Below are positions 20,603 to 47,470 of a DNA stretch of 64,000 nt, in pieces. The stretch comes from Tenacibaculum jejuense (GTDB taxonomy: Bacteria; Bacteroidota; Bacteroidia; Flavobacteriales; Flavobacteriaceae): positions 3,996,001 through 4,060,000 of the forward strand of contig NZ_LT899436.1 in the NCBI RefSeq assembly GCF_900198195.1. Direction: 5' to 3'. The notes below the pieces were generated by a model. The model searched no databases. It was not told where the DNA came from and was given only the letters and a program-made list of their open reading frames with translations. Made by a program: the position numbers and the translations under genes. Each line of letters begins with the position of its first letter. Positions within the stretch are counted from its first letter, which is position 1.

Positions 20603-23600
20603 CTATTTTATAACAATCTTTTTGGTAGTTACTTTTCCTTCTTCACTATTTGTAATTTCTAATACATACAATCCTTTTGCTAAATCTTCAACAGGTAAAA
20701 TAATATGCTGTTGTTTATTAAAATTTTTCTGTTTTACAATCTTCCCATTCATATTGAATAAGCGCAATTGCCTTTTAGCATTTAAATTTTGATATATCGG
20801 AATTGCAACTGAAATAAAATTTGAAGCTGGATTTGGTCCAATTGCAAATACTTCAGTTTCTAAACTTTGTTCATTTTGAATTCTAGATGCAACAGTGCTT
20901 GCGCAGTTCGGTGTTGTATTTGTTGTACTGAAATACAAGGTATATCCTTTTGTTTTTGAAACTAGCACAAAGTTGTCAGCATCTAAGGTTACCCAATATG
21001 CTCCATCTAAACCTGTAAAACCAGATCCTGTTATTATTATTTCTGGCTGTGCTTGATTGAAATTATGCGTAATACTTGGTATTAAGTTATTCCACCAAGA
21101 TGGAGAACCATTTGTTGTATTAATTGAAAATTGCCACAAACCATTTGCATTGGCATCCCAGTTTATGGTAAACTTTTCGATATTACTTAAGTCAGGTCCA
21201 TTTCCTAAAACAAATACATGATCATAAGCTTTATTGACAGATGCTAAACTTGTGGTTATTGGCGTACCAAAACTACAACCTGAAGGATTCGGATTTGAAT
21301 CATCGATTACGTTGATTGTAATACTTTTAGAATCTTGTAAAACACCATCACTTACTGTTAATATTACATTGTAACTATTTGGCTGTAAAAATTCATAAGC
21401 GATTGTTTCTCCTGTTGCAGTATTTCCGTCACCAAAATCCCATGTATATGTTAATACATCTCCATCTGGGTCTGTTGAACTAGAAGCATCAAACTGAACT
21501 AATAAAGGTGCATTTCCTGAGATTACATCTGTAGTAAAATTAGCTATCGGAGCATTATTTATCGGTTGATCTGTTACTGTAATTACCGTAGATTTTATGT
21601 GTTGTTTTTCTCCATCACTAACCGTAAGTTCAACTGTATAGTTATCAGGTTGTGTAAACTCATGTGAAACTATTTCTCCTACTGCTGTATTTCCATCACC
21701 AAAATCCCAAGTATAAGTTAATACATCTCCATCTGGATCGTAAGAACCTGATGCATCAAACTGAACACTTAATGGACTTTGTCCTGAACTTACATTAGAG
21801 GTAAAATCTGCAATCGGAGCTCTATTTTCAGCAATCGAACCATCGGGTTCTAATCCCCAAACTAACTGTCCTTTGTAATATAACGTGACTAAAACATGTG
21901 GACTTAAAGCATTCTTAGCTGCATCATAAGAAAAATCATTCAGCTGATTGTGAGATTGAAATCCAGAATGATGCAATCTTGTTACGATCTGTCCAGATTT
22001 TGAGTTTGCACTGATATTTCCAGAAGTAGTTGTAAATCCTAATTCTAAATAATTTTCTGAACCTAATGCTTCATATTTTCCTGTAATTCCTTTTGGTTGA
22101 GAATAATCTATATTGAATACCATAGGAACATTATGATCTGGTGTAAACCAATAACGAATTGTAAAATCTTTCAATGCTAAATTCTTATTGGAACCATTTA
22201 CAATTTGAAATACCGGTTTTAATTCTGATGAATTTGCTCCTGAACTATTATCTCTATACTCGACACTAAAATCAGTATCTGGTAAATTTGCTAGTCTTTC
22301 ATCTACTGTAAATGTCACTTCTTTAAATTCTCCAGTAAGTGTACCATTGGCTTCTACCAATTCTAACTTAATAGTATGAGCGCCTTCTGTTAAATTTGAT
22401 ACAGGAATAGGAGTAACTGAATACACATCTTGCTGTTCAATTCCATCTAAAGAATATTTCACATGTCTTCCATTAGGTGAAAGATCCCACAAGATTGTAG
22501 AAAATTCAATAGAAAAACTAGGTCCGACTAAACTTCCATTTGTTGGCGATTCAATTAATACTGTTGGATCTTTTGGAATTGAATCTTTGGTTACCATAAC
22601 CGTTATCGTTTCTCCAAGTTCCGTTAACGAATTGTCACTTCTTTCCATTTGAAGTGTTAATTCATGTGGACCTTCAGACAAATTTGTTAAATCTTCATGC
22701 ACACCTTCCGAAGTTATTAAACCTCTATCTTGTCCATCTATTCTATATCTTAACTGAAATTGTTGTGACGGTAAATCCCAACCTTCAGTTTCAAATTCAA
22801 TACTAATTGGAGCATTTACTAATTGTCCGTTAGTTGGTGAAGTAAAATATACATCAGGTAATGGTCCGATTGGCGTATCTGCATCACCACCATGAAGTGT
22901 CCATAAAATCGCTGCATCAAACATTTTTAAACCTTGTGGTGTTAGTAAATGCATGAATTGATCTCGTAATGGAAACGCTGTTCTTCTCGATGGAATTGTT
23001 GCACTAGCCTCATAACCAAATAAAATAGGTTGTGTACCTGCTTTAGCAATTACAATAGCTTCTGTTGATGGACTTCCAAAAGGTAAACTTTGTGTAATAT
23101 CATATAAAGCTGTTGTTATTCCAGCATTTGCTGCCATTGGATGATTTGGAGCTGAAATTGTTACTTGATCGAAGCCTTCATTTGTAATTCCAAAACCTGT
23201 ATTTAACGATCCTGAAGTCATTCTTAAACGATTGTACATAAAAGGATTCCAGGTTAATAACGGCACTCTAGCTCCTTCTAAATCATTTCCTAGTTCTCTT
23301 GGATCTACAGTAGAAGAAATTAAAACTAAATCATACGGATTTGCAGATTGCGGACTCGTAGCTTCTTCATCTGAAAACAAAGTAATAGAAAAGCCAAATT
23401 GTTGTGCTAATCTCGATTTTATACGCTGATCTTCATTGGAAAGATTTGTCTTATCTCCTACTACAAACATTACGTTGATTGTATTCTTAAATGTAACTTT
23501 TGATTCTGGAGTTATAGAAGCTGTTTTTCCGTTGTTATAAAATACTTTAGCAACTACTGTGTATGTTTTCCATAAAATAGGTTGCCAAGAACTTTCGAAA

Positions 23601-26600
23601 GGTGCTGTAGTAACTTCTTCAACCAAATCGTTATCTACATAATATTCAACTTTAGTTACTCCTTCAATATTAGTATTTACTGCTAATTTTACTTTTTCTG
23701 ATGTATTTAATTTCGATCCATCTGAAGGCGATGCCATTTCTAAAACTTGAGTATCATCTGTATTAATCTCATCGCCATCAATTTGATTAATATATGCTAC
23801 TAACTGATCAATTTGATTTTGACTTAAAGTAGAAACTGCTCCGTGTGCATCTCCAACATTCTTTGTTGTTAAAACTTCTTTAATTGTTTTTGCTGAACCA
23901 TCATGTAAATATGGAGCTGTTGCCCAAACATCTTTTAATGTAGGAACATCTAAACCTAACAATGTTTTTTGAAGACGTTGTCCACTTTGAATTCCTAAAG
24001 TACCCACATCGTGTAATTTTCCTGAAGGACTATCTGTAAATGTTTCTCCACTATGACAAGAAGCACATTTTAAGTCTGAGAAAATAGCTTTTCCTGCAAC
24101 TCCATCTGTAGTTAACGATCCGTTAGCATTTTTATACGGACTCGGTTCAAAAGTATCTAACGATTCTATATACGCTGTTAAAGCATCTAAATCTGCTGAT
24201 TTTCCTGTTTTCGCATCTCCAAGTGTTAAGGCTGTTGTTCCATCGTTAAAATCATCTGTAATCATAAAACCTTGACCTTTAAAATGCGCACGAATATCAT
24301 TTTCAAAATCTTGAATTTCATCAAAATTCGCACTCCAATGTACTCTTCCGTGAGCAGTTCCAGCACGACCAACTAGTGAAATCGTATTTCTTAACCCTTC
24401 TCCACGATCAGTGAAATCCCAAGTTCTTCCATCTTGAGTTCCATCAACATGACAACTCGCACAGCTGATATAACCATCGGTTCCCATTTTTAAATTAGAT
24501 GCATCGTAAAAAATTTGTTTCCCTTTTAATACTTCAGCACTTAAAAACTCCATTCCGACAGTATTAATAGTCGCTAAATTTTCTAGCACCGGATTTCCGT
24601 TCGTCACCATAGTATTGGCATTTAAAACAGTAACCGAACGATCCATAAAGTTTTTTACAAAAAGTCGGTTGGTATTTTTATCAAAAGCTAAACCTTGTGG
24701 AGATTTTCCTACATCTGTTTTTAAAATTTCGATGCCCGTTTTCGGATCAATTACAATAATTCTATTGTTTCCTTGCATGGTAACAAACAAATAATTTCCT
24801 GTTGGAGAATATAAAGCTGATGAAGGCTGACCATGATTATCAAAATCTAATCTATTTCCTAAATCTTCTTTTCCTGTTGTTAAATTGATCGGAGAAATAG
24901 CTGTACGAACAGCATTATCGAAAGTTAACGTTTTTCCATCTCTCGCAAATCCTCTTAAAATATTATCTTTTTTTGCTACCGACCAAGCAGATTTATTATT
25001 GGGATGAATGCTAACACCTGAAATATAATTTGGTAATCCTCGAGCTGCATTTCCGTTATCTACAGTGAAATCATCTAATGCTAAATCAATTGTTTTTTTA
25101 GTTAACGTATTTAGGTTTACTTCCCAAACTTGACCTTCTTCATCTGGTGAAATAAAACGTGTGACTAACATTTTGTTTCCATCTCCAGTAATTGCTAAAG
25201 CTCTTGGTGTATTTCCTATTGAAATTGTATTTGCAATTACTTTTGTTGACGGATTAATTTCGATAATCTTTCCTGAACCAAAAGCAGAAATAAAAGCACG
25301 TGTTTGATCTGGAGTAAATACCAATCCGTAAGGTCGATCACCTCGATTTAATTGAATTTGATCTTGAACGATTCCTTGAGTATTTAAAATATAAACCTCA
25401 TCTGAATCTCTACAAGTAATCCAAGCATTTTGTTGTCCATCTAACGCTACACTAATAGGATCTTTTCCTACCGAAATTTCTTTTATTACAGTAAAATTAT
25501 CGGCATCGATTAATGTAACTGAATTATTATCTGGATTTACAGACCATACCATTCTATTTATTTCATCTACTATAATTGGTCCGGATTGTGTTGGAGCAGT
25601 ATTTGGTAGATTTTCTGAAACAACTATAGCTTTTGAAGCCACTACAAAACCTCCGTTGTTATCTGAAATTTGAACTTGCACATTATAATTTCCTGCTTCA
25701 GTGAAGGTATGATTTACCGTTTTGGTAGTCCATTCTGTTTTTGGTGTTCCATCACCAAAGTCCCAACGATAACTTAATTTATTACCATCAGCATCTGTCG
25801 CATTTGCTGTAAACTCAACCTGAGTATTCTCAATTACAGGAGAAGTTTTGTTAGCTGTAATACCTGTTACTTCTGGAGATTGATTTGAAGAATCACCACC
25901 TGTAGTAAAAAAGAAACTATATTCCTCCATTCCATTACCAACTGCATCTTTAATTCCACCTTCAACAAACTTTACTTCGTAAGTTGTATTCGGTAATAAT
26001 GGATTTTTAGGCGCGTAATTAATTACTTGATATGAAGTTGTGGTAACATCTCCTTGAATTGGATTTCCTCCAAGTGGACTTACTTGAATAGTTTGATCAT
26101 TTAATGTTAAATCATTCAAAGTTTCATTAATTACAAAACCAATTGTAGTTGTTACTGGCTGATTAATTGCTCCTGAAACTGGAAAATGATGCCCAACAGA
26201 AGGCCCTTTTGTGTCTAACTCATCTTGATGTGCAAAAATTGAAGTTTTATCATCTCCACTAGCCACTAAAATATGTCCGATTGGCATCCATTGATTATCG
26301 ATAAATTGAAGCGTTTCATCACTAGAAGGAGGAAAAAATTCATGATCAATTTCCATAGTTTCAAAATTAAATTTCACACCTCTGTCAAATCTTCCAGAGA
26401 AACCAAATTCGTCTTGAAAAATCATATATCTTCCTAATGTAATTTGATCGGAATGCAAACTAAATCCTCTTGTTACATTTGTTGGATCACTGATATCAAA
26501 ACCAACTAAAGCATCTGGGCCTTGATTTCCGCTCATAAAAATCAGGTAATTTCTCCACAGTTGAATTCCTGTACTATATTGTTCGTGAGGAATATCTCCT

Positions 26601-27310
26601 CCAAAAGATCCTAAAAATTTAATATTACTTGGATCTCCGAAATCGAATACATTTATCGCTCCTGTTTGTGGTGCATAAAACACATAGTTTCCTACTCTTA
26701 CGACAACATCTGGAACTGCAACACTTACCGGAATATTATCGACTTGTTGACCAGAACGCATATCGAAAACTCGATTTCCGACAATAGTATGTGGGAACGT
26801 TTCTAGATTATCGTAATTCGCTTGTCCATCTTGAACGGTATATAAAATATCTGAAGATGTTACCGGTTTTCTATCCAGCATATTAGATAAATCGAGATAT
26901 TTGTACCCTGTTCCTTCCAGTTCTGGAACAGAATATTCTCGATAAAATAAATCTCCTTCTAATTTCCACCAACGATGACCGTTATTTGCAGCGTCGCTAA
27001 ACTGAACTCGTTTTGGAGCAGTTGGATTTGACACATCCCAAACGCCTGTTCCTGCTTGTCCGTTAATCATCAAGTAATTACGATGATATGTGTTAATTCT
27101 ATCTCCTTCTGGAAAGTTTGAAAGAAAAGTTCCTTTAGGCCAAGTTTGTTTTGTCATTTCCGGACCTTTTGTACCATCGTACATCGGCAATATTGACTTT
27201 ACAGCTAGACCTAAAGAAATAAAGACAATAGTAAAATACCAGATAGGTCGTTTTATTTTCTCCTGGATATTTGAATATATCCAACGTTTAAATTTTTGTT
27301 TAAGTTTCAT
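20603..27310 (-). CDS. Giant secreted beta-propeller / dihaem cytochrome c / CBM3 protein
   Basis: I start at the ATG at 27310 (MKLKQKFKRW); the frame can be extended 39 nt only with a TTG. The 2,235 residues contain a membrane or signal segment (20-38), an LVIVD-type propeller (about 40-370), an Ig-like Big_5 domain (370-473), a PKD domain (477-567) and a YVTN-type propeller (570-915). A dihaem c-type MauG/cytochrome-peroxidase-like region (920-1185) follows, with two haem motifs (CASCH near 950 and near 1083) and PTLKDVWATAPYLHDGSA. Then come an Ig domain, a Rossmann-like domain (1273-1477), two Ig domains, a CBM3 (1675-1823), two PKD domains, an X module (2010-2135) and a T9SS tail (from 2150). 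It is the last gene of the cellulase locus. I infer a secreted electron-transfer or peroxide-handling protein held on cellulose. Confidence 0.85.
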   Translation of the reverse strand: MKLKQKFKRWIYSNIQEKIKRPIWYFTIVFISLGLAVKSILPMYDGTKGPEMTKQTWPKGTFLSNFPEGDRINTYHRNYLMINGQAGTGVWDVSNPTAPKRVQFSDAANNGHRWWKLEGDLFYREYSVPELEGTGYKYLDLSNMLDRKPVTSSDILYTVQDGQANYDNLETFPHTIVGNRVFDMRSGQQVDNIPVSVAVPDVVVRVGNYVFYAPQTGAINVFDFGDPSNIKFLGSFGGDIPHEQYSTGIQLWRNYLIFMSGNQGPDALVGFDISDPTNVTRGFSLHSDQITLGRYMIFQDEFGFSGRFDRGVKFNFETMEIDHEFFPPSSDETLQFIDNQWMPIGHILVASGDDKTSIFAHQDELDTKGPSVGHHFPVSGAINQPVTTTIGFVINETLNDLTLNDQTIQVSPLGGNPIQGDVTTTSYQVINYAPKNPLLPNTTYEVKFVEGGIKDAVGNGMEEYSFFFTTGGDSSNQSPEVTGITANKTSPVIENTQVEFTANATDADGNKLSYRWDFGDGTPKTEWTTKTVNHTFTEAGNYNVQVQISDNNGGFVVASKAIVVSENLPNTAPTQSGPIIVDEINRMVWSVNPDNNSVTLIDADNFTVIKEISVGKDPISVALDGQQNAWITCRDSDEVYILNTQGIVQDQIQLNRGDRPYGLVFTPDQTRAFISAFGSGKIIEINPSTKVIANTISIGNTPRALAITGDGNKMLVTRFISPDEEGQVWEVNLNTLTKKTIDLALDDFTVDNGNAARGLPNYISGVSIHPNNKSAWSVAKKDNILRGFARDGKTLTFDNAVRTAISPINLTTGKEDLGNRLDFDNHGQPSSALYSPTGNYLFVTMQGNNRIIVIDPKTGIEILKTDVGKSPQGLAFDKNTNRLFVKNFMDRSVTVLNANTMVTNGNPVLENLATINTVGMEFLSAEVLKGKQIFYDASNLKMGTDGYISCASCHVDGTQDGRTWDFTDRGEGLRNTISLVGRAGTAHGRVHWSANFDEIQDFENDIRAHFKGQGFMITDDFNDGTTALTLGDAKTGKSADLDALTAYIESLDTFEPSPYKNANGSLTTDGVAGKAIFSDLKCASCHSGETFTDSPSGKLHDVGTLGIQSGQRLQKTLLGLDVPTLKDVWATAPYLHDGSAKTIKEVLTTKNVGDAHGAVSTLSQNQIDQLVAYINQIDGDEINTDDTQVLEMASPSDGSKLNTSEKVKLAVNTNIEGVTKVEYYVDNDLVEEVTTAPFESSWQPILWKTYTVVAKVFYNNGKTASITPESKVTFKNTINVMFVVGDKTNLSNEDQRIKSRLAQQFGFSITLFSDEEATSPQSANPYDLVLISSTVDPRELGNDLEGARVPLLTWNPFMYNRLRMTSGSLNTGFGITNEGFDQVTISAPNHPMAANAGITTALYDITQSLPFGSPSTEAIVIAKAGTQPILFGYEASATIPSRRTAFPLRDQFMHLLTPQGLKMFDAAILWTLHGGDADTPIGPLPDVYFTSPTNGQLVNAPISIEFETEGWDLPSQQFQLRYRIDGQDRGLITSEGVHEDLTNLSEGPHELTLQMERSDNSLTELGETITVMVTKDSIPKDPTVLIESPTNGSLVGPSFSIEFSTILWDLSPNGRHVKYSLDGIEQQDVYSVTPIPVSNLTEGAHTIKLELVEANGTLTGEFKEVTFTVDERLANLPDTDFSVEYRDNSSGANSSELKPVFQIVNGSNKNLALKDFTIRYWFTPDHNVPMVFNIDYSQPKGITGKYEALGSENYLELGFTTTSGNISANSKSGQIVTRLHHSGFQSHNQLNDFSYDAAKNALSPHVLVTLYYKGQLVWGLEPDGSIAENRAPIADFTSNVSSGQSPLSVQFDASGSYDPDGDVLTYTWDFGDGNTAVGEIVSHEFTQPDNYTVELTVSDGEKQHIKSTVITVTDQPINNAPIANFTTDVISGNAPLLVQFDASSSTDPDGDVLTYTWDFGDGNTATGETIAYEFLQPNSYNVILTVSDGVLQDSKSITINVIDDSNPNPSGCSFGTPITTSLASVNKAYDHVFVLGNGPDLSNIEKFTINWDANANGLWQFSINTTNGSPSWWNNLIPSITHNFNQAQPEIIITGSGFTGLDGAYWVTLDADNFVLVSKTKGYTLYFSTTNTTPNCASTVASRIQNEQSLETEVFAIGPNPASNFISVAIPIYQNLNAKRQLRLFNMNGKIVKQKNFNKQQHIILPVEDLAKGLYVLEITNSEEGKVTTKKIVIK
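20903..21277 (-). other. X module, copy in the cytochrome protein
   Basis: This is a 125-residue unit bounded by Cys residues (CSFGTP ... PNC). It carries the shared core HVFVLGNGPDLSN, INWD, GLWQF, GSPSWW, FTGLDGAYW and LYFSTTN. It is homologous to four other copies in the locus and always sits after PKD domains. Confidence 0.85.
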
Positions 27311-27378
27311 GATTTTTATTGATTGATTTGTTAGTTTATTTCTAATCAAATGTATTTTGTCCCTACTTAAACCTTTTT

Positions 27379-27420
27379 ACGTAAGGCCAACCGAGATAGT
27401 TCTCGGTTCACCTTTACATA
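27379..27420 (-). promoter_or_regulatory. Intergenic hairpin in the cellulase locus
   Basis: The stem AACCGAG/CTCGGTT is extended by imperfectly paired flanks (TGTAAAGGTG with GGCCTTACG) and gives a stem-loop of about 40 nt. It lies in the 144-nt gap between the GH5-GH8 gene and the cytochrome gene. No T-run follows, so it is more likely an RNA-processing or stabilising element than a terminator. Confidence 0.55.
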
Positions 27421-27454
27421 AAATTCAATCCCTAATAATTGAAAATTTTGTATG

Positions 27455-30400
27455 CTACTTTTTAATGATTTTTTTTACAGTTGTAGTACCTAAATCGTTA
27501 TTCCTTATTTCCATAACATATATTCCTTTAGCTAAATCTGAAGTGCGAACTTTCATGGTTTGTTTATCATTAAACTTCTTCTTTTTAATGATTTGACCAT
27601 TTAAATTAAATAAGAACATTTCTCTATTCGATTTCACATTTTGATGTATTGGAGCTATTGAAATAATATCTTCTACAGGATTAGGCCAAACAACAAACTC
27701 TTCTGCTTTGATAGTACCATTCTGTTGAAATCTACTAGCTATAGTAATTTCACAACTTGGTTTCACATTAGTAGTACTGAAGTAAATTGTAAACTGACCT
27801 GTTTTAGAAACTAACACAAAATTTCCGTTATCTAAAGCCGCCCAATATTCACCATCTAAACCTGTAAAACCGGATCCTGTGATTGTAATTTCTGGTTTAG
27901 ACTGATTAAAATTTTGCGTGACTTTTGGTAGGAAATTCACCCACCATGACGGACTTCCATTATTTGTGCTCATTGAAAGTTGCCATAATCCGTTATTTGC
28001 AAGTCCCCAATTAATTCCGAAATTGGTTACATTACTTAAATCAGGGCCGTTTCCTAAAACAAAAATGTAGTCGTATGTTTTGCTAATCGACGGTAATGCA
28101 GTATTCATTGGTGTATTGAATGTGCAATTTATAGGAGTATTATCATCTCTTACACTAATAATTTTTGTTTTCGAGGTCTGTAAAGTCCCATCGCTCACTG
28201 TTAGAGTTACATTATAATCTCTAGCTTGTAAAAATGTATGCGACGCTGTTACACCAGTTGCTGATGTTCCGTCATCAAAACTCCAAGTATATGTTATTGC
28301 ATCTCCATCTGGGTCAGAAGAACTAGACGCATCAAAATTTACCTGTAATGGTACTGTACCTGATACAACACTACTTGTAAACATAGCTATAGGTGCGTTA
28401 TTTTCACTTGCAGTAGGTTTATAAATTTTAAACGTCCCTGCTAAATGCATATAACTCATCATATATAATAATCCGTCATAATAACGATACTTACCAGAAG
28501 GTGGTGATAATTCATACAACTCATCTACAAATGGCCAAACTTTTGCGTCTGCTAAGGCTAAACTTCCTACTGCATTACATGCAACTAAACCTGGATTATG
28601 ATCAAAAGTAATTGGTGTTGAACCGTCTAAACTCCAAGAACCTTCATAATTTGGTTTGTCTTTAAAGAAATCAATTTGATTATTGATGATTGTTTGGGTA
28701 TTGTTTTTACTTTTTTGAAACCATGCAAAATCAAATCCCATGTTCATAATTACTCGCCAAGCATCAAACCCAAAATGTCCACGATTCAAGTCATCTTTAG
28801 GACTCCCATCAAATCCAGAATAATCTGGAGTTAATCCAGTTACTGGATGCGCAGCTCTTGGCAATAAGTAATCTCTACTTCTGGTAGCCATATCTGCCCA
28901 TAATTCGTTATTATTATCTGCATACAATGCCCAGAGATCATAAAACGCCGCCAAATGATAAGAAGGATCTGTAAATTGTGCCGAATCTCCACAAGGAGTG
29001 AACACTATTTGCTTCTCATTTAAATCAATTAAATTGGTTGGACATTGACCGCTATTTGCACTTGCCTTATTAATCATATTATCTAAAATATAATTTGCTT
29101 GTGCTTTGTAATTAAATACGTCAGTTTCTGAATTAAAACTCCCCGTTCCTTGTTGACTACCCCATCTCGCATCTGCAAAAAATAAAGCAGTAACAAAATA
29201 TTCTTCGCCGTCTGGAGCAGAATTTGGATCTATCATTCCATAATCTGTAGTGTTTAATTGCCAAGAGAACAATCCTTCTCTGGCATCACCTGGCTTATGC
29301 TGACTGTATGTTTTCACAAATTTCCAAAGCTTATCAAAAGCTTCTTTTTTATCTAATTGCACACAAATCATCATTCCATAAGACATTCCTTCTGAACGAA
29401 TATCATCATTACCTGTATCTAAAATATAAGCCATATCGTTACCTACCTCATACATTAATCTTTCAGAAGTTGCATCTCCATTTACAAAATATCGATTCCA
29501 TAATTGATCTAATTTTTGCTGAACTGCTGCTTCGCTTCTTCCAGATTCAACGAACATATTACGATACACATCTGTTACAAACGATGGTTGGTTTGGAATG
29601 ACTGGTGCTGGTCTTGTATCACCACCAGCATCTGATTCACGAGTTAACTTTATTGTAGAAAAATTAAAAGAACCTTTGTCTATAAACATTCTCATAACTT
29701 GTTCTCCTGCATCTAACATTATATTTGAGATTTTTTGAGAACTATAACTCGTCCATCCACCAGTTGCAGAAACATTTTGTAATCCAGTAACATCTTTACC
29801 ATCGAATTCGATATGGTAAGCTCCATTAGAAACTGCTGAAGCCACTAAAACATCTATTGTATATATTCCCGATTCAAGTACATTAACGGTGTATTCTACC
29901 CATTCACCATCTGCCGTGTATCCAATATTTCCTTCATTTCCTCCAAACTCTGTATCTACATCTTCTTCTTGTCTTATTCCGTCACCATCATTACCAGAAG
30001 TTGTATCGTGATACGCAACAGTTTCTCCTCCTAAATCAAAAGAAGTAGCTTTTATTTTTCCTGGAATAACTTGAGGTTTCCCATCTACATACGGAAGTTG
30101 CGGAGGAAGTGGAACATCTTCATAAATCACTTTTATTGTATGATTTGCAGAAACATTTGAAAAAGTATACGTTGTAACAGCTCCTACTGAAGTTCCATCA
30201 ACTAAAATATCTCCGATTTTAAATCCGATATTAGAGGTAATATCAAAAATTTGATTGTCTCCTTCATAAACAATTACATTTCCCGAAGGAGAAATTGTTC
30301 CGCCTGCAACATTAGTTGACGCATTGATCGTAAATGTAGTTCCGCAAGAAGCAACACTTGGATCTAACATTGATGGTGGAATTATCGATGTATTTTGAAT

Positions 30401-31369: not shown

Positions 31370-31378
31370 AACTTAATT

Positions 31379-33466
31379 TTAAAACCCTTTAATTACTTTT
31401 TTGACTGTAATTGATTTTCCATGTTGTAATTGAAGAAAATAAACACCTTGTTTTAGTTTACTAGAGTTAAATACTTTACTGTTTGTATCTGTTTCTATTT
31501 TTTCTTCAAGCAGTACTCCTCCTGAATATCCTAATATTCTTACCGTTGTTCCATTAAGATTTTCTGTTGAAGTAATTATAAATTCATTAGAAACAGGATT
31601 AGGTGCAACTTGCACATTTATAGCTGGCACATCATCGCAATTCGGTTTGACATCTGTAGTACTACAATAAATTGTAAAACCTTTTAACTTCGAAACCAAC
31701 ACTAAGTTCCCATCATCTAAAGCTACCCAATAAGTTCCGTCTAAATCTGTAAAACCTGAATTTGTAATTGTAATTTCTGGTTGTGTCTGATTAAAATTCT
31801 GTGTGATTTTAGGTAACAAATCTAACCACCAAGAAGGAGAACCGTTATTGGTATTCATAGAAAATTGCCATAAACCATTATTAGTTAAATCCCAATTAAT
31901 TGTGATATCATTTACGTTACTTAAATCTGGTCCATTTCCAAGAACAAATACATGATTATACGTTTTGTTTACAGAGGATAAAGCGGTATTTAAAGGTGTA
32001 TTAAATTCACATCCTGATGGAGGTGTATCACTAGAAACTGAAATAATTATTGTTGCTGTGTCTTGTAAATTTCCATCACTTACAGTTAAAACTACATTAT
32101 ATTCTCCTGCTTGGGTAAATTCATGACTCGTAGTTACTCCAATTGCTGAATTTCCATCATTAAAATCCCATGAATATGTTAATGCATCTCCATCAATATC
32201 AGATGAGTTTGATCCATCAAACTGAATTGTTACTGGAGCAACTCCTGTTGTTATATTAGCTGTTACACTTGCTACAGGAGCTGTATTTCCGCCTCCATTT
32301 CCATTAATAATATTTGGAATAAATGGTGCTAAATGTGGTGTTAGTACATCTAACTTCCATTGATTTACAGAAGACCAATCATCTTGTAAAATTCCTCCCG
32401 TATCACCTGAATTTGGATTCATACTCCAAAAAGTCCAAGAGTAACGAGGCCCCATAAAATTTACAAACTCTGTAAACCAAGTGTAAGCTATTCCACCAAA
32501 AGCATCTTGCTCTTTGATACCAAACTCTCCAATAAATAATGGAGAAGTTTCATTATCATATAAATACCCATAATTTTCTTCCCAAATACCTGGCATATTT
32601 TGAGGGAAATCTGGTGTTTCAAACCAATCTTGTTGTGAAACTTCTGGTCCATATTCATGAGCAGAATACATTAATTTAGTTTGATCTGTTAATTGAATAG
32701 GATATTGTCTTGCTCCCATTAATTGTCCGCCCCACCAATATGAGTTTCCTTCGAATTCGCCAACTCCTTCCACGATTATTAATACATTTGGATTTACATT
32801 TAAAATTGCATTTCCACATCGTTCTGCAGCTTTATTCCAATCTGTTAAAGGATTGCTATTTCCCCAACTTGACCCATGAGGTTCGTTATTTAAATCCATT
32901 CCTACTACAGCAGAAAAATTCTTGTAACGTTCTGCCATAAAAATCCAGTCATTGATCCAACGTTCTTCAGAATACTCTGTTGTATACCAAAATGCTTCAT
33001 TTAAGAACCCATCTGCTGCTCTAGAATGATTATCTAATACGATTTTCATGTCATTATCTTGACACCATTGCACGAACACATCTAACAACTCTATTGGACT
33101 TGTTATGTTCGTTTCTTCTTCATTCATTGGGGATATGCCTGTGTATGCATCGGAACCGTATGAAGGAATATCGATTGTAGCTCCTGGATCTAACATTTCG
33201 TTACACCAAGGCACACGAATGGTATTAAAACCTAAATCTTTTATTTGTTGTAAAACACTTTTCATATCGCGTGTCCAGATTCCGTGAGGAAAATAGTTTT
33301 GTGTTTCAAAACCAAACCAGTTTACTCCAGTTAATCGCACTTCTTGACCTCTTGAATCAAATAATTTATTTCCTGAAACAGATAACCAATTCTGCTCTTG
33401 TCCTGTTACTATTACACCTAAACACAGGCATAACAGCACTATTAGTTTTTGTATAATTTTTTCCAT
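31379..33466 (-). CDS. Secreted GH5 endoglucanase-like enzyme with PKD, X module, T9SS tail
   Basis: This 695-residue protein has a signal peptide (1-22) and a GH5 catalytic domain (about 23-385) resembling the E1-type cellulases of subfamily 1: GVNWFGFETQNYFPHGIWTRD, acid/base Glu in DLNNEPHGS and nucleophile Glu in LFIGEFGIKE. A Gly/Asn linker, one PKD domain (395-478), one X module (485-610) and a T9SS type A domain (618-695) follow. The expected activity is endo-beta-1,4-glucanase on cellulose. It is the third gene of the locus. A terminator-like hairpin ends about 30 nt upstream of its ATG, and its stop lies 9 nt before the next gene. Confidence 0.9.
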   Translation of the reverse strand: MEKIIQKLIVLLCLCLGVIVTGQEQNWLSVSGNKLFDSRGQEVRLTGVNWFGFETQNYFPHGIWTRDMKSVLQQIKDLGFNTIRVPWCNEMLDPGATIDIPSYGSDAYTGISPMNEEETNITSPIELLDVFVQWCQDNDMKIVLDNHSRAADGFLNEAFWYTTEYSEERWINDWIFMAERYKNFSAVVGMDLNNEPHGSSWGNSNPLTDWNKAAERCGNAILNVNPNVLIIVEGVGEFEGNSYWWGGQLMGARQYPIQLTDQTKLMYSAHEYGPEVSQQDWFETPDFPQNMPGIWEENYGYLYDNETSPLFIGEFGIKEQDAFGGIAYTWFTEFVNFMGPRYSWTFWSMNPNSGDTGGILQDDWSSVNQWKLDVLTPHLAPFIPNIINGNGGGNTAPVASVTANITTGVAPVTIQFDGSNSSDIDGDALTYSWDFNDGNSAIGVTTSHEFTQAGEYNVVLTVSDGNLQDTATIIISVSSDTPPSGCEFNTPLNTALSSVNKTYNHVFVLGNGPDLSNVNDITINWDLTNNGLWQFSMNTNNGSPSWWLDLLPKITQNFNQTQPEITITNSGFTDLDGTYWVALDDGNLVLVSKLKGFTIYCSTTDVKPNCDDVPAINVQVAPNPVSNEFIITSTENLNGTTVRILGYSGGVLLEEKIETDTNSKVFNSSKLKQGVYFLQLQHGKSITVKKVIKGF
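31637..32011 (-). other. X module, copy in the GH5 endoglucanase
   Basis: This 125-residue unit runs from CEFNTP to PNC with core HVFVLGNGPDLSN, INWD, GLWQF, GSPSWW, FTDLDGTYW and IYCSTTD. It is one of five homologous copies. Confidence 0.85.
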
Positions 33467-33494
33467 TTTTGAAAGTTTTTATGATTTTATTGGT

Positions 33495-33536
33495 AATAAA
33501 AAAATCACTTTTGCCCGTTATAGAACAAAAGTGATT
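33495..33536 (-). terminator. Terminator-like hairpin between two GH5 genes
   Basis: A perfect 12-bp stem (33502-33513 with 33525-33536) is followed on the minus strand by TTTTTTT. It lies between the mannanase stop (33546) and the endoglucanase start (33466). That leaves only about 30 nt, little room for a new promoter, so it probably acts as a partial terminator. Confidence 0.8.
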
Positions 33537-33545
33537 TGAACAGCA

Positions 33546-36500
33546 TTAACGCTTAATAATCAATCTTTTTCTAACTATTCTTTGTGTTTTAGGGTTAGTA
33601 ATTTCTACAATGTATAAACCATCAGCAAGCCCATCTACTCTAAGGTTTTTCGATGAACTATTTACAACTGGTAATCCGCTTAGATTTAAAATTTTAATAG
33701 TTAAATCATTTAAATTTTCATCCATTTTGATCGTTACTTGATCCACAGCTGGATTTGGATATAATGTTGCTTTAGATAACATAATATCTTCATTCGATTG
33801 AGCTGTAATTGCAGAAGTTGGCTCTGTTCCCCAAACTAAAGTTCCATTTGAATAAAGTGTTATTTTATCATTGGCACTATAACTTGTTGCAGTAGCATCA
33901 TATGAATAATCATTAAGTTCGTTGAAAGGAGACCAATTCGTCTTAGAAAATCTTGCTTGAATTGGACCTGTATTTCCTGAAGAAGCAATACTACCCGCTG
34001 AAGTTTCAAATGATAATTCTAAATAATCCATTCCATTTGCTACTCCAAAAGTTCCATTTACAAATGAACTTCCTAATTGTGCCCAATCACACCAGAAATT
34101 TAAATTGTTATTATCTTCAGAAGTAAACCAGTAACGAACAGTAAGCATACTTAAATCTACAGCCTGATCTCCATTATTGACAATTCGTAAATGTGGATTT
34201 ACCATATTATCTGAAGCATTCGCTCTTCCTCCATCTGTATATTCTACCATTAATGAAGCATTTGTAACCTCTTCTGTAACTTTAATAGTTTTACTGATAG
34301 ACACAGGCGAAACAATACCATTATCTACTGTTAATGTTACCAAATAATCACCTGGTGTATCATAAGTTTTAGCAACTATAATTCCCGTTGCTGTTGTAGT
34401 ATCTCCAAAATCCCAAGTATATGTAAGAGAATTTCCTGTTGGATCTGATGAAGCCGAAGCGTCAAAATTCACAGTTAAAGGAGCAACTCCTTGTAATTGA
34501 TCTGCTGTGAAACTTGCTACCACTTCTGTAGAATTAACAGTAATTGTTTCTTTAGCTACACTTGTTGAAGTTCCGTCACTAACTCTTAACGTAACTTCAT
34601 ATGCTCCACTTTGAGTAAACTCGTACGTGAAAATTGCATCTGTAGCTGTGACTCCATTTCCTAAATCCCATTCATAAGTTAGTACATCTCCTTCTGGATC
34701 TGAAGAACCTGTAGCATCTAAAGTAACCGATAACGGTTCGTTCCCAGATATAGGTGTTGCTGAAATTACTGCAATTGGAGCTTGATTGATATCTCCTGAA
34801 GGCTCTATTCCGCTTATTAATTTTCCGTTTAAATATAATGTTACTCTATTCCAAACAGCAAAATCATTCTGGGTGGCATTGTAAGAGTAATCATTAGCCT
34901 GATTCATATCTGACCAAGTTTGATTTGCAAATTTCCCTTCTATTCTTCCAGAGTTTTCATCGCTTCCTAAACTTCCAGCAGCAGCATCGAATGTAATTTC
35001 TAAATACTTAGAATCTCCAGAAACAGTTACAAACTTTCCATTTACATTACTTGAACCAATTTTAGCATAATCTGTAAAGAAATTTATGTCTTGATCATCA
35101 TCTGAATTAAACCAATAACGAATGCTTAAATCTTCATAATTTACTGGAGTTGATGCATTATTTTTAATTCTGAAATGTGGTTTAATAATGTTTGTTACTG
35201 TAGCAATTGAAGCATTTTTATATTCTAATTCTACAACACCTTCTCCTCCTACTTGAATTGTTCTTCCTGATGAAGTTTTTGTGTTACCGTTTACACCTGT
35301 TGCGATAGAAGTAATTACATGATTTCCGTCTGGTAAATTCGCTTCAAATTCAAAAGGAGCAGTTGTATCTTCTCCTAACAAAACACCATCTGCATAAAAA
35401 GCTACTTTAGCTACAGAGTTAGATGCATTGATAAGATTTGTTGCTATTTTCACTGAACTTCCAGACACATAAACATCTCCTGATTTAGGTGACATTAGCG
35501 ATAAATAAATCACTTCTCCACCAGACATTTCTTCCATTTTTTGTGCGTGACGTTTGTAAATATCTAACTCGACATCGCCTTCAAAAACAGCAAATTTATC
35601 TCTTGGAGTACGATCATCTGGAAACCACCAAAATGCACTTCCTCCTATTTTCTTTTTCTCTATAAATCCATAGATTTCTTCCCACCATTCACTTCTTTCT
35701 ATTCGTTCTACATTAAACTCTCCAATGTACAACGGCTTTTTAATCATATCATGAGATTCATCTGCCCATTGACAAACTAAAGCCATGGTTTCATCTAAAG
35801 TGAAATTTGACCAACTTTCTCTAATGTATGGATGCGCTGAAGTAAAGTCGATATATGGAGATTCATGAATTTTAATAAAATCATTTCCTTCGTCTCCTCC
35901 AAAACCATATTTTAATCCGTGAGCTTCTAAACCTGTTCCTAGTAAATGATTTGAATCTATATTTTTTATAAAAGCTCCCATATCATCTACCCAAGCTCTT
36001 AAAACATCTGAAGTTAAATCATCTCCAAAACCTTGATATCTTGGTTCGTTCATTAACTCCCAAGCTAAAATCGTTGGATCATCTTTGTAAGCAACTCCGT
36101 CGTAATGATTTACTCTTGTGATAAAATATTCTACGTAGTCTTTATATCCTTGAATTGCTGAAGCATTGGTAAAGAATTGTCCTTGATCGTGAGTTCCAGC
36201 TCCTTCTACTTCTATACCTTCCCATTTCAATCGATCTTTAATTCCTCCATAGTCATTCCAATAATTTTCTAGCGCAATAATGAGTTTAATTCCGTTAGCT
36301 TCTGCAGACTTAACAATGTAATCGAATAACGAAAATTGAGCTTCGCTATACACTCCTTTTTCTGGTTCAAATCCATGCCATTCTTCATGACTAAATCCCC
36401 AAATTCGTATTACTCGAATTCCGTTTACATATAATCTTCTCATATGAGCATCGATACGCTCTTTATCCATAAATTGAGTTTCTATATCTCCACTAGAAGA

Positions 36501-36686
36501 TCCATAAGTAAAGAAATCATATACATTCGCTCCTGAAATATAAAATGGTTGCCCATTTAACATGAATTTGTCTCCTTCTGCATACACAAAACCTGAAGTA
36601 TTTTTATTGGTTTGTGCGTTACTATATAATGAACTTAAAAGTAGCACCATAGCAGATGCTAAAGCTTTTAAGAATAAGCTTTTCAT
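33546..36686 (-). CDS. Secreted GH5 beta-mannanase-like enzyme with two CBM3 and two PKD domains
   Basis: I use the ATG at 36686 (MKSLFLKALASAMVLLL), which gives a proper signal peptide; the upstream extension in this frame starts with TTG inside a terminator hairpin. The 1,046-residue protein has a GH5 domain (about 28-390, subfamily 7-like, as in mannan endo-1,4-beta-mannosidases) with acid/base Glu in WELMNEPRYQG and nucleophile Glu in LYIGEFNVE. It continues with an Ig-like domain (392-478), a CBM3 (480-628), two PKD domains (632-798), a second CBM3 (803-958) and a T9SS tail. The CBM3 domains suggest that a mannanase is anchored on cellulose. This is the only protein of the five that lacks an X module. 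Confidence 0.9.
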   Translation of the reverse strand: MKSLFLKALASAMVLLLSSLYSNAQTNKNTSGFVYAEGDKFMLNGQPFYISGANVYDFFTYGSSSGDIETQFMDKERIDAHMRRLYVNGIRVIRIWGFSHEEWHGFEPEKGVYSEAQFSLFDYIVKSAEANGIKLIIALENYWNDYGGIKDRLKWEGIEVEGAGTHDQGQFFTNASAIQGYKDYVEYFITRVNHYDGVAYKDDPTILAWELMNEPRYQGFGDDLTSDVLRAWVDDMGAFIKNIDSNHLLGTGLEAHGLKYGFGGDEGNDFIKIHESPYIDFTSAHPYIRESWSNFTLDETMALVCQWADESHDMIKKPLYIGEFNVERIERSEWWEEIYGFIEKKKIGGSAFWWFPDDRTPRDKFAVFEGDVELDIYKRHAQKMEEMSGGEVIYLSLMSPKSGDVYVSGSSVKIATNLINASNSVAKVAFYADGVLLGEDTTAPFEFEANLPDGNHVITSIATGVNGNTKTSSGRTIQVGGEGVVELEYKNASIATVTNIIKPHFRIKNNASTPVNYEDLSIRYWFNSDDDQDINFFTDYAKIGSSNVNGKFVTVSGDSKYLEITFDAAAGSLGSDENSGRIEGKFANQTWSDMNQANDYSYNATQNDFAVWNRVTLYLNGKLISGIEPSGDINQAPIAVISATPISGNEPLSVTLDATGSSDPEGDVLTYEWDLGNGVTATDAIFTYEFTQSGAYEVTLRVSDGTSTSVAKETITVNSTEVVASFTADQLQGVAPLTVNFDASASSDPTGNSLTYTWDFGDTTTATGIIVAKTYDTPGDYLVTLTVDNGIVSPVSISKTIKVTEEVTNASLMVEYTDGGRANASDNMVNPHLRIVNNGDQAVDLSMLTVRYWFTSEDNNNLNFWCDWAQLGSSFVNGTFGVANGMDYLELSFETSAGSIASSGNTGPIQARFSKTNWSPFNELNDYSYDATATSYSANDKITLYSNGTLVWGTEPTSAITAQSNEDIMLSKATLYPNPAVDQVTIKMDENLNDLTIKILNLSGLPVVNSSSKNLRVDGLADGLYIVEITNPKTQRIVRKRLIIKR

Positions 36687-36719
36687 AATTAGGGGGTATT
36701 TTTTGGTTGATTTTTTATA

Positions 36720-36750
36720 AGAAAAAGAGGAGTGCAAAATTGCACTCCTC
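36720..36750 (-). terminator. Terminator-like hairpin after the GH9-GH48 gene
   Basis: A perfect 10-bp stem GAGGAGTGCA/TGCACTCCTC (36727-36736 with 36741-36750) is followed on the minus strand by TTTTT. It ends about 35 nt before the ATG of the mannanase gene and probably acts as a partial terminator. Confidence 0.82.
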
Positions 36751-36763
36751 TAATGACCATTAA

Positions 36764-39700
36764 TTACTTCACAATAATCTTTTTTCTAGAAACGATGTTT
36801 GCAGATACATCTTTAGTTTCTAAAATATAAACTCCTGTTGGTAATCCGTTCACTGAAATTGTTGTTCTATTTTGTTGGCTTTCTAAAGTTTTACTTGTAA
36901 TAACTCTTCCTGATAAATCTATCAATCTTAGTTCTACATTATCTTTCGTATTGAAAACCGAAACATTTATTAAGTCTGAAGCTGGATTAGGGCCAACTCC
37001 AACAGACATTTGTGTTGGTTTTGTTCTAGCAGCAGTTGTTGCTCCTCCAAAGAAGAAACCGTATTCTGCATTTGCTAAAGCAACTTCGATTTGCGCCCAA
37101 CTTCTGTGGTAACGTTGCGTATATTCTTGCCCGCTATTGTAAGCTTCCTCTAATCTTGCAAAATCTGGATCATTTCTATAGTTTGATCTGATATCTAAGA
37201 AAGTTACACCTGGTTCAATTACATCTCCATTTGGCATTGTTCCTGTGAATCCGTTTGGCACATAAACTTCTTGCTCAAAAATACGTGTAAAATCACCTCT
37301 ACTTTCTGGAGCTGCTACTCCTTTATCATCTCTATATGTTCTCCACATTCTATCTAATACTTCTTTAGCTAAATCGCGAGAAGCTGTATCTAGAGTTTCA
37401 TACTTTTCTGTAGCAGCAGCATAGTAGATTAGAGCTTTAGCCATAGAAGCAGCAACACCTAAATCTTTACCATAATCTGTTACAGTAACACTTAATCCGT
37501 CGTTAGAACCAGGATTATCAGGGTTCCAAGTATCTGGTTCACCTGTCCACTCTAAAGTAGCTGGAATATCAAAATCATCTTCTCCAATTAATACTACAAC
37601 ATTTTTCACCCAATTCGCCCATTTGTCCATTAAGTTTTTCGCCATAGTATCATTAGTGATATAGTAATACTCAGCAATACGCTCCATAGACCATGCTTGC
37701 CATCCAAACCAAGTTCCACTTCCTGGATCTTCGTATACTGGATTATCATCGTAAGCCATATCATAGAATGTAGATTTTCCTGCTGGATATGTGCTATAAT
37801 CTCCATTCCAACTATTCGTTGCACCACCTGCAATTCCACCTTCTTTAGATTGTAACCAAGTATAGAATTCTAACTGACGTTGTAAACTTACTCCCCAGTC
37901 TCTTGCTCCTGTTGGAGTTCCTGGTTTCATTTCATTTACTTGCGACATTGCATAAGCTGCTACTGGATTTTGATATCCGAAGTGACAGTGACTAGAACTA
38001 ATTCTAAACGCCCAAGGTGCAGAAGTATCTACAGCTCCACCCCATGAAATATACCAAGACATTAAATAATGTGCACTATCGTAACCTGTACCGGCTCCAG
38101 ACACATCACTTTGTACTCCTAAAGGTTTAAAATACTTATCGAACATTCCTATTCTTAGGTAATCTCCCATTTTAGTCGCTTTATCTAAGTCTAAAAGATT
38201 TAAACTAACATTTTGTTCTTTAGCATAAACTTGCGCCCAATACATAGCTTGAACAGCTCTTGCATCTGCATCAGTTGCACTTGTATATCTCCACTGTCTC
38301 GAATAGTTTTGATCTATAGTGAATAATGGTAAATATCCGTCAGGTCCTCCCCAATCAAATCCTTCCCAAGATGGATGTGGAATTGTTTCATAAACAGATT
38401 CTTGTTCTCCTCTTTGGAATGTATTAATGTAAGAAGGTGTACTTACTCCATCTCCTCTATTTCCGTATCCATAGAAATTATCATTATCTAATAACCAGTG
38501 CATTTGATAAACTTCTGGTCCATAAGCCGCAGTTAATTCTGCTGATACTGGATCAACACCTACTGGAGCTGAAAATTCTAATGGAGCAGGATAACCGCTA
38601 GGTAATGCAAACTCTGGAGCATATGCAGCAGGACTCGAAGGATTATAAGCGGCATTTGTAGGTTGATCTGCCTGAGTTGGAATGATAAACTCTTCAATTC
38701 TATCCCAAACTGTTCCAATTGAACCCCAGTCTCCATTGATTCTAGCATTCATTACTTCTAACCATAACCAGTATGAATATAATTCACTTGTTGACTCATG
38801 TCCATGATCTGGAGCTTCAACAATTAATGATTCAATAGAATGATGCGGAGATCCATCTGCACTAAAATATCCATTTTCTGGTGCGTAAAATTTAGCTCTC
38901 ATTTCATTGAAACGATCTAAATATTCATTTCCAGTTGGACCCGGATCTACAATAACTACAGGATCTGAAACTCTTATTACAACTGTTTTTGTTGCAGTTC
39001 CTCCATTTCCATCATTTACAGTTAATACTACACTGTAATTTCCTTTAGCTGTAAATGTGTTTTGAATTGTAACTCCTGAACCAGAATTACTATCGTTAAA
39101 ATCCCAGCTATATCCTAATGTATCTCCATCTGCATCTGAAGAAGCAGAAGCATCGAAAGTTACCGTTAAAGGTGCTTCACCTGAAATAGGACTTGCAGTA
39201 AAATCTGCTACTGGATCTGTATTTCCTGATCCATCACCACAATTTGGCGCTGTATCTGTAGTACTGAAATAAATTGTAAAATCTCCTGCTTTTGATACTA
39301 ACACGAAGTTATCAGCATCCATAGTAGCCCAATACGAACCATCTAGACCTGAGAAACCTGAGTTTGTGATTGTAACCTCTGGTTGTGCAGAATTAAAATT
39401 CTGAGAAACTTTTGGTTTTAAATCATTCCACCAAGAAGGTATTCCATTGTTAGTTAGCATCGAAAATTGATACAATCCATTATTTGGTAAATCCCAATTG
39501 ATTGTAAAATTAGATACATTATCTAAACTTGGCCCACCGTTTCCTAAAACAAAAATATGATTATACTGTCTTTGTACTGAAGGTAAAGCATTTGCTACTG
39601 GTGTGTTAAATGCACATTCATTAACTGCTAACGCATCTGTAGTTGTAGTAGTAGTTAATGTTGCAGAGTTACAATTTGGCACTTGATCTGTCTCGCTAAA

Positions 39701-42700
39701 ATAAATTGTAAATCCTCCTGTTTTAGAAGCTAAAACAAAATTTCCATTATCTACAGTTGCCCAATACGAACCATCTAAATTTTGGAATCCTGAATTAGTA
39801 ATTGTTACTTCTGGATTTGCTTGACCAAAGTTTTGTGTAACTTTAGGTTTAAAGTCATTCCACCAAGAAGGAACTCCATTATTAGTTAGCATCGAGAATT
39901 GATACAATCCGTTATTTGGTAAATCCCAATTGATTGTAAAATTAGATACATTATCTAAATTTGGTCCACCGTTTCCTAAAACAAAAATATGATTGAATTG
40001 TTTATGAATTGTTGGTAATGCATTTGCGGTTGGTGTACCAAAACCACAAGAAGTATTTCCATCTGTTGCTACAATAGTTTGAGTTACTGAATCTGATTCT
40101 CCATCAGCATTTGTAACTGTTAAAGTAACTGTATATTGATCTGGCGTACTATAAGTTGTTGCACTAGTAACTCCTGTAGCTGATAATCCATTACCAAAAC
40201 TCCAGTTGTAAGTTAATGCACCTCCTTTAGGATTTACAGATGATGAAGCATCAAAAGTTACATCAAAAGGAACTACTCCGCTATCTACACTAGAAGTAAA
40301 AGCAGCTACTGGACTTCCATCAGTTACGTTAATTACTGTAGATTTTGTTCCTGTTTTACTTCCATCGCTTACAGTTAATTTTACAGTATAATCTCCAACA
40401 GTTGTATAATCGTGACTAACTGTAACTCCTGTTCCAGACGTTCCATCTCCAAAGTCCCAACTGTAACTTAATGTATCTCCATTTTCATCTGAAGAAGCAG
40501 AAGCATCAAAACTTACTGTTACTGGAGCTATTCCTGTTTCTGGCGTTGCAGTAAATTCAGCAACTGGAGCTATATTTCCATCTGAAACCTCTATCGTTTT
40601 AGTTACTGGCGAAGATGTATTTGTACCATCACTTACAGTTAAAGTAACCACATAATTATCTATTCCTGTAAATGTAACTTTAGGATTTACTAATGTTGAA
40701 GTTGTTCCATTTCCAAAATCCCAACTGTACGTTAATGCATCTCCATTAGGATCTGAAGAAGCTGAGGCATTGAATTGTACTTCTAGAGGCGCAACTCCAG
40801 ATTCTGGTGTTGCTGTAAATGAAGCTGTTGGTGTATCTCCACCATTTGGCTCTTGTCCTCCAGCTAACTCTCCATCAACATAAATAGGCACATTTTGTAC
40901 AATTTTAAGTGTATTATTTAATCCTGCATACGAAAAGTCATTTGTAGGATCCCAAGCTGAAGCACTTGCGCTATTCGGTAAAGAAACTCGTACTTGAATT
41001 TCACTTCTATATTCTCCTTGTCCTCCTGGAAAAGGCATACGATCTTGACTAACTTCTACTTCAGCATAATAAATGTTATTTGCAGCATCCCAAGCTTGTA
41101 AGCTAGGATTGATTATTCCTGCTCCTCTTCCATTTACAACATAATCACTAGCAGTTAATCCTTCAGCAACTCCTTCAGAAATATCAATAAAATATCGTGC
41201 TTTTAATGAGCTTGGAACTCGTGCTGGCCATGCAGAACGGTTATTTAACCATATTGCAACCTCAGTAGATTTATTTTGATCGTTATTAATTCTTACTTCA
41301 TTAATAAACTCTAAACCTGGAGTTTCTGGCTGTGGGAAATTTGCTAATTCTGTTCCTCCGAAGTCAATAACCATTTTCGCTAATACTCCTTGATAACAAG
41401 CATTGTAATCTGTTGCTACTTCATTAGCTTGAAAATCATCTCTATCTTCAACAAAAACATCATTCGCAGCCATTGGTCCGCCCATTAAAGCTCCCCATAA
41501 TGTATGTCTAGATTCTACTGGTACAGCAGAACTTCTTGTCCAACTTGCATGCTGACCTCTATGATGCGGTTTTGTAGGAGGATTTACTCCAAAACCAGTA
41601 ACTAGACTTCTATTGTTAGGATTATCACCTAAAATATAATTGATCTGATTTACTGCAAATTGATAATACTGGTTCTTTTTTGGAGTAGCAACATTGTCGC
41701 TATAAATTAATGCAGTTAAAGATGCATTCATAGCATGACGAGAAGAACCCCATTGTGTTAAATGTGCTTGTCCTCCTGGAGAATAATTAATTCCTCCTCC
41801 TTGTTGCCAGAAATCTAAATGTCTTTCTGCATCTGCTTTATAATTACTTTTTCCTGTAATCATTGATAATAAAACCATATTTCCATACGATTTATCATCC
41901 CATACTAAACTCCAAAGAAAATCTGGTAATGTGTATTCTGCTTCAGCTTTTTGTAAATAAGTTACATCTCCAGTAGCTTTATATAACCATAATGCTCCCC
42001 AAGTTAACTCATCTTGATAACCTCCAGAAGAATATGTTCCTGTAGCAGGAATTCCACCATCTTCATTGTATAAACCTCTGTAAGTATCTCCGAACTCATA
42101 TAATTCTTTTGCATGCTGTAATAAGGTTGCACTGTAAGCCGGATCACTATCTTTAAAGATTATACTCGCTGAGGCTAAAGCTGCTGCAGTTTCACAAGCA
42201 ACTTCCGTACCTGGAGCAGAAGGTGATAATTTATACGATTTACGCTGACCATATTGCGGATGAACGTCTACCATTTCTGGAGCCATCCAAAAGTTATGAT
42301 CTTGAGATTTACTATCAGCAACCTGAGCGTAAAATTCATTTGGACTTGGGTGACATTTAATAAAATAATCTGTTACCCACTTTATATTTCTTTTAAAAAT
42401 TTCAGTTTGATTTACAGCATCATATCCAGCTTTATATTCTAAAAACCCCCAATTTAATGCTGTTACTGAAAACGCCATAGGAAAACCAAATTTTACGTGA
42501 TCTCCAGCATCATGCCATCCACCAGTTAAATCTAACCCTACATCTTTTCCATCGTTGACACCTGCGTTTGATCGCCAACTGATTCTGTTCCAATCTGGTA
42601 AGACACCGGACTGTTGTGTCTCATAAAATAATAATGACTTTTGTAAAGCCTCTCCGTAATTATATTGTGCTTTTGAGCTAAAGGGTAAAAAACACAACAT

Positions 42701-42730: not shown

Positions 42731-42787
42731 ATTCAATAATTTAGTTTGATCATTTACAATACTTTCCCTTTCCAATAAATGTTAAAC

Positions 42788-46975: not shown

Positions 46976-47470
46976 GTGAAAAAAATCTTATTATTATCGG
47001 ATACTCATAGTTATATTGATGATCAAATTTTAAAATTTGTAAAGCAAGCTGATGAAGTTTGGCATGCTGGCGATATTGGTAATTTAAAAGTAACAGACAC
47101 TATTAAATCTTTCAAGCCTTTACGCGCAGTTTATGGAAATATTGATGATGCTGAAGCTCGTGCAGAATTCCCTTTAGATAACACTTTTGAACTGGAAGGT
47201 GTTTCTGTTTGGATGACTCATATTGGTGGATATCCTGGAAAGTATAAACCTCGCGTTTATGGCGAACTTCAAAAGCATACACCTAAACTTTTTATTTGTG
47301 GTCATTCGCATATTTTGAAAGTTCAATTTGATAAGCATTTTAATTTACTACACATAAATCCTGGTGCAGCCGGAAAACATGGTTTTCATAAAGTACGTAC
47401 CATGATTCGTTTTGAATTACGTGCTGGTGGTATTGAAAATATGGAAGTTATTGAGCTGGCAAAAAATTAA
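46976..47470 (+). CDS. YfcE/MJ0936-type metallophosphoesterase
   Basis: This 164-residue protein has the calcineurin-like motifs in order: LLLSDTHSYID, WHAGDIGN, YGNIDDAEAR, MTHIG and CGHSHI. It should be a cytoplasmic Mn-dependent phosphodiesterase; the substrate is unknown. The start is a GTG at 46976: the overlapping ATG two bases upstream (46974) is out of frame and followed at once by a stop. A TAATTTCG, close to the -7 consensus, lies only a few bases upstream, so the mRNA may be nearly leaderless. The gene overlaps the convergent kinase gene by 4 bp. Confidence 0.88.
   Translation: MKKILLLSDTHSYIDDQILKFVKQADEVWHAGDIGNLKVTDTIKSFKPLRAVYGNIDDAEARAEFPLDNTFELEGVSVWMTHIGGYPGKYKPRVYGELQKHTPKLFICGHSHILKVQFDKHFNLLHINPGAAGKHGFHKVRTMIRFELRAGGIENMEVIELAKN

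Follow-up and report, generated by a model that had tools for sequence, protein, structure and literature searches.

Carbohydrate-binding module (CBM) family CBM113 was described in 2026 with 553 homologs; its founder is the domain UKD of CelAly from Aquimarina sp. 2-A2 (PDB 9KVN), which, according to the available parts of that report, is the only member studied so far and binds both cellulose and alginate (PMC13235733). In the same source, mutagenesis tied Tyr50, Tyr63 and Tyr64 of UKD to cellulose binding, the ligand being insoluble cellulose and not soluble cellohexaose, while CBM96 and CBM80 are placed near UKD on the tree described there (PMC13235733). Lipocalin/FABP-type (calycin) barrels are also among the closest known systems. 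Here we report five related modules in a stretch of 64,000 nt of the Tenacibaculum jejuense genome (GCF_900198195.1, contig NZ_LT899436.1, positions 3,996,001-4,060,000), referred to below as the window, where they are carried by the proteins of a cellulase locus. We favour, with a probability of roughly 0.78, an interpretation from sequence in which these are cellulase-branch CBM113 modules, that is, beta-barrel cellulose anchors with a tryptophan face and little or no binding of alginate.

The five modules (Table 1) translate exactly and without stop codons at the coordinates proposed in a preliminary description of this DNA, all on the minus strand, which that description had not given. They are 125, 125, 125, 126 and 126 residues long (modules 1-5) and show 58-70% identity to the first copy, with a mean column identity of 80%. 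Cysteines at both ends and the blocks FVLGNG, PSWW, LDGxYW and (I/L)Y occur in all five, as had been described; INWD and (W/Y)QF, listed there as equally shared, are found in four, module 2 having INWG and WQL instead. A profile built from the five copies matches UKD in 9KVN with E 1.1e-46 (profile 1-124 to chain 1-126) and, because this crystal structure is independent of the profile, the similarity of the five modules is far above chance. The predicted fold of module 3 agrees with the beta-barrel of 9KVN. Aromatic residues occupy positions 50, 63 and 64 in 15 of 15 cases: the W/Y of (W/Y)QF and the two tryptophans of PSWW, suspected earlier to be binding aromatics, align exactly with Tyr50, Tyr63 and Tyr64 of UKD, tryptophan replacing the published tyrosine at 63 and 64.

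The preliminary description was thus correct as to kind, a carbohydrate-binding module, but its proposal of an unrecognised, new family must be rejected because 9KVN and PMC13235733 already define CBM113, a match of just the sort it had named as speaking against novelty. The name CBM113 for the window modules is taken from PMC13235733, the one paper returned by a full-text literature search. The domain databases are silent, as no Pfam or NCBIfam model covers the module as a domain in the four host proteins (P0006, P0007, P0008 and P0010; E <= 0.1), a point that, like the structure prediction, had been put forward for checking; a weak REJ match (E 0.0085, below the cut-off) spans a PKD domain into module 3.

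The window copies share with UKD a full-length sequence match, the fold, the terminal cysteines, the three aromatic positions and Lys110, but they differ in the remainder of the presumed ligand surface. UKD reads R Y Y Y K K at positions 36/50/63/64/100/110. In the window, Tyr63 and Tyr64 are replaced by tryptophan in all five copies, a basic residue occurs at 36 in 0/5, at 100 in 0/5 and at 110 in 5/5, and the net charge is negative in 5/5. The combination of basic residues at 36, 100 and 110 is the mark of the dual cellulose/alginate type and not of CBM113 as a whole. Positions 36 and 100, whose basic residues the CelAly domain may use for alginate, are not basic in the window copies; binding of alginate would therefore be expected to be weak or absent, and the modules are probably cellulose-only anchors.

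A search of the 4.61-Mb genome (one contig) found no further copies in the window and a sixth outside the locus (G000:C1:1526245-1526625), so that the earlier claim that the modules sit only in cellulase-locus proteins is correct within the window but not across the genome. The sixth host is a CelAly-like protein of 1086 residues (L041:4970-8230, about 1.526 Mb) consisting of GH5, a beta-helix, two Big_7 domains and CBM113, the architecture published for CelAly (PMC13235733). Its gene is adjoined by that of a PL28 ulvan lyase. The genome also has two PL7-type alginate lyase matches and, on its single contig, 0 LPMO_10 (AA10) matches. At the six positions the sixth copy reads R R Y Y K R, with Arg rather than Tyr at 50, and by this pattern it is of the lyase type; set against the patterns of the window copies, it follows that two unlike kinds of module occur in one genome. 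Alginate binding of the window copies would accordingly differ from that of this CelAly-type copy.

The same contrast is seen in a sample of 265 full-length CBM113 modules (236 distinct) from profile-found loci, query-found proteins and genome-survey loci. Partner labels were assigned from similarity to catalytic domains and gave 49 lyase-linked and 170 cellulase/AA10/cytochrome-linked modules, with 17 that were neither and stand outside both counts; the label PL31 denotes similarity to the CelAly beta-helix or to five other beta-helix references, not all of them proven alginate lyases. A basic residue at 36 is present in 44/49 lyase-linked versus 15/170 cellulase/AA10/cytochrome-linked modules, and Trp63 in 10/49 versus 163/170. 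Basic residues at both 36 and 100 occur in 26/49 versus 1/170, all three aromatics in 33/49 versus 169/170, and a basic residue at 110 in 49/49 versus 126/170; the median net charge is -1 versus -6. Among the AA10-linked modules, the basic residue at 110 is missing in 13 of 15, and six proteins with an AA10 lytic polysaccharide monooxygenase (LPMO; P0069, P0070, P0071, P0012, L104 and L114) have two CBM113 copies each.

Because most sources of this set were seeded, by the window profile or by one cellulase-type and one CelAly-type protein query, the count was repeated on the survey loci and the host's own genome. This gave 62 distinct modules, of which 9 are lyase-linked, 51 are cellulase-type and 2 are unlabelled. 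Here, position 36 is basic in 9/9 lyase-linked versus 1/51 cellulase-type modules and Trp63 is present in 0/9 versus 50/51, while only 2/9 lyase-linked copies keep the three aromatics (compared with the 33/49 of the seeded set). The signal therefore sits in position 36 and the tryptophan face, position 100 being informative only in the seeded set.

The two types also form separate branches in both of two trees built without the six key columns. The larger tree kept 175 of 237 rows, modules at least 85% identical or with more than 12 gaps having been dropped. On one side of a branch with a value of 96 in the SH-like approximate likelihood-ratio test (SH-aLRT) lie UKD and the lyase rows, all 40 of them, together with four rows of cellulase type and seven labelled with another partner or none; the opposite side has 123 rows with zero lyase. 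The smaller tree (83 of the 175 rows, without P0066 and, apart from the rows of UKD and the window, below 70% identity) has a split with support 96/96 that places all 23 lyase rows, UKD being one of them, with 2/53 cellulase-type rows against the other 51/53, its bootstrap not being fully settled. The window copies and UKD lie on opposite branches. From these sequences, CBM113 divides into two branches that go with different partner enzymes, namely cellulases, AA10 and a redox protein in one and alginate-lyase-type enzymes in the other; this division is new here.

Several observations weigh against a clear functional division. The published alginate residues are called conserved across CBM113 homologs in the available text (PMC13235733), and one of the three, Lys110, is kept in 5/5 window copies, as is a basic residue in most cellulase-type modules. 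A basic residue at 36 is found in 9/45 GH9+GH48 modules and is thus present in the cellulase branch too, while in the survey set a basic residue at 100 discriminates poorly (2/9 lyase-linked versus 3/51 cellulase-type). Since PSWW or FVLG forms part of the locus search patterns, these are biased towards the tryptophan type. Repeated co-evolution of residues and partners is unsupported, as the tree offers only 2-4 independent pairs and the sign test was not significant; four partner changes suffice on the tree, so a repeated origin cannot be shown, and the attempt at a statistical proof failed for want of independent pairs. The link between residues and partners is mostly one old split.

An alternative is that dual binding holds throughout CBM113, so that the window copies would also take both cellulose and alginate, with Lys110 and further surface charges standing in for Arg36 and Lys100. 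The one tested member is dual (PMC13235733), Lys110 is universal in the window and, with two PL7-type matches in the genome, alginate may be part of the diet. We nevertheless consider this unlikely, as neither Arg36 nor Lys100 is kept in any window copy, the net charge is negative in each, and domain scans of the four host proteins gave no match to a lyase family. Less probable still is a main ligand other than cellulose, such as mannan, xylan or beta-glucan, with cellulose as a minor target. Exchanges of Trp for Tyr can alter the ligand range, and the operon additionally codes for GH8, for CBM6 and for one protein whose sole catalytic match is weak; however, labelled partners outside the lyase branch are mostly GH5, GH9, GH48 or AA10, Trp63 is kept almost throughout that group, and UKD itself takes insoluble cellulose and not soluble cellohexaose (PMC13235733). 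That the module is a mere structural spacer or T9SS-related stalk without a ligand can hardly be maintained: three of the five copies directly precede the tail of the type IX secretion system (T9SS) and stand beside PKD spacers, but the other two lie in tandem in mid-protein between GH9 and GH48, the three aromatic positions are kept in 169/170 cellulase-type modules, and the homolog UKD binds polysaccharide (PMC13235733).

If the window modules are cellulose anchors as we propose, each would be a small beta-barrel, probably closed by a disulfide between Cys1 and Cys125, on which Trp/Tyr48, Trp61 and Trp62 (UKD 50, 63 and 64) would provide a flat aromatic platform for stacking on insoluble cellulose. 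The PKD repeats would serve as spacers, and the T9SS tail would direct the complete protein to the surface of the cell or beyond it. GH5, GH8 and GH9/GH48 domains, together with one di-haem redox protein, could thus be held on the same cellulose surface.

Five large proteins make up the locus (20603-42775); their genes follow one another head to tail with gaps of 9-105 bases, an arrangement from which it is probable that they form one operon. Four carry CBM113, and domain scans place a T9SS tail at the end of each of the five.

Table 1. Modules, proteins and redox core of the cellulase locus (window coordinates)
Feature	Position	Strand	Context or domains	Residues at UKD 36/50/63/64/100/110
CBM113 module 1	20903..21277	-	near C-terminus of propeller/di-haem protein	E W W W L K
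CBM113 module 2	27752..28126	-	in GH5 + CBM6 + GH8 protein	T W W W L K
CBM113 module 3	31637..32011	-	in GH5 cellulase	N W W W L K
CBM113 module 4	39239..39616	-	second of tandem pair between GH9 and GH48	S Y W W M K
CBM113 module 5	39671..40048	-	first of tandem pair between GH9 and GH48	S Y W W V K
Host protein 1 (P0006)	20603..27349	-	Big_5, PKD, YVTN-type beta-propeller, di-haem MauG/CcP-like cytochrome (2 CxxCH), Big_7, CBM3, 2 PKD, CBM113, T9SS tail	
Redox core of host protein 1	23732..25639	-	residues 571-1206	
Host protein 2 (P0007)	27455..31369	-	GH5, CBM6, GH8, PKD, CBM113, T9SS tail	
Host protein 3 (P0008)	31379..33466	-	GH5 cellulase, PKD, CBM113, T9SS tail	
Operon member without CBM113 (P0009)	33546..36737	-	glycoside-hydrolase-like N-terminus (weak Glyco_hydro_42 match), Big_7, two CBM3, two PKD, T9SS tail	
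Host protein 4 (P0010)	36764..42775	-	GH9, CBM3, PKDs, CBM113 x2, PKD, GH48, T9SS tail	

About 12-15 kb downstream of the operon lie another GH8 with a T9SS tail (6660-8042) and a MAM/fn3 T9SS protein of 1377 residues (1525-5658). Upstream, a TPR-histidine kinase and a LuxR-type response regulator (47467-50805) are possible candidates for a regulator; genes for an ABC transporter, a tRNA pseudouridine synthase and a metallophosphoesterase are situated between this pair and the operon.

In host protein 1, domain scans found no cellulase domain but a beta-propeller and a di-haem cytochrome; its database copy has 2235 aa, and a probable ATG start lies 13 codons downstream of the TTG. The redox core is 59-98% identical to the cores of ten other loci and has 2833 relatives at E <= 1e-20 among 7994 candidates scored. 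Among the matches listed, 120 of these 2833 with the window's own included, two CxxCH motifs occur in 120/120 and CBM113 in 34/120, and some of the others are fused to CBM2, CBM6, CBM64 or galactose-oxidase-like domains. All NCBIfam family models that match the core score below their cut-offs (best 88 bits versus 1250), with the exception of a general propeller-repeat model, and in the structure prediction the haem part is poorly modelled (mean predicted local distance difference test score, pLDDT, 64).

The closest described proteins are Cbp2D/Cbp2E of Cellvibrio japonicus and TERTU_2913/3803 of Teredinibacter, which, as far as the available texts go, likewise occur in cellulose users and contain redox or c-type cytochrome domains, cellulose-binding modules being present in most of them (PMC10916295, PMC12542752). 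Compared by description only, those consist of X158/X183/X132/X122 domains, Cbp2D also having CBM2 (PMC10916295, PMC12542752), whereas host protein 1 combines a YVTN propeller, a MauG/CcP-like di-haem part, CBM3 and CBM113. Literature searches aimed at a cytochrome or MauG/propeller protein with a link to cellulose in Bacteroidetes or flavobacteria gave no relevant paper among those listed. The gene lies within a cellulase operon of a genome without an AA10 match, which weakens the idea of a Cbp2D-like electron donor to LPMOs and leaves room for another redox role. Across 11 searched genomes with the cytochrome protein and CBM113 (G000, G320, G692, G775 and G945-G951, that of L009 being outside the count), 5 have an AA10 match and 6 have none.

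CBM113 is patchy in its distribution, as expected for an accessory trait. Matches were found in 10/397 genomes drawn from the host's family, 4/395 from its phylum, 11/166 of its genus and 4/12 of a second genus; the family, phylum and genus counts each include the host's own genome, the draws overlap, and in the two 400-genome draws 10-11 first-look candidates were scored per genome, so that copies may have been missed.

Finely balanced, in our judgement, is the wider proposal that the ligand surface of CBM113 diverged with the partner enzyme. It would comprise a cellulose type that has a tryptophan face but lacks a basic patch, as do all five window copies, and an alginate type with a basic patch and an often broken aromatic face, UKD with both being an intermediate rather than typical; the cellulose type would also dock the widespread, unnamed propeller/di-haem redox enzyme on cellulose, in some host genomes without AA10 LPMOs. 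Because the surface of the window branch differs from that of UKD, the dual binding reported for UKD may not be family-wide. A separate question raised by the redox protein is which function a di-haem enzyme would have on cellulose where the genome lacks AA10. Should the split prove functional, one domain reading two unlike polysaccharides would be true of only part of CBM113, and the six copies of one genome, five cellulose-type and one CelAly-type, would be a natural series on the residues of ligand choice. For annotation, Trp63 without a basic residue at 36 would then suggest cellulose, and a basic position 36 combined with a broken aromatic face would suggest alginate.
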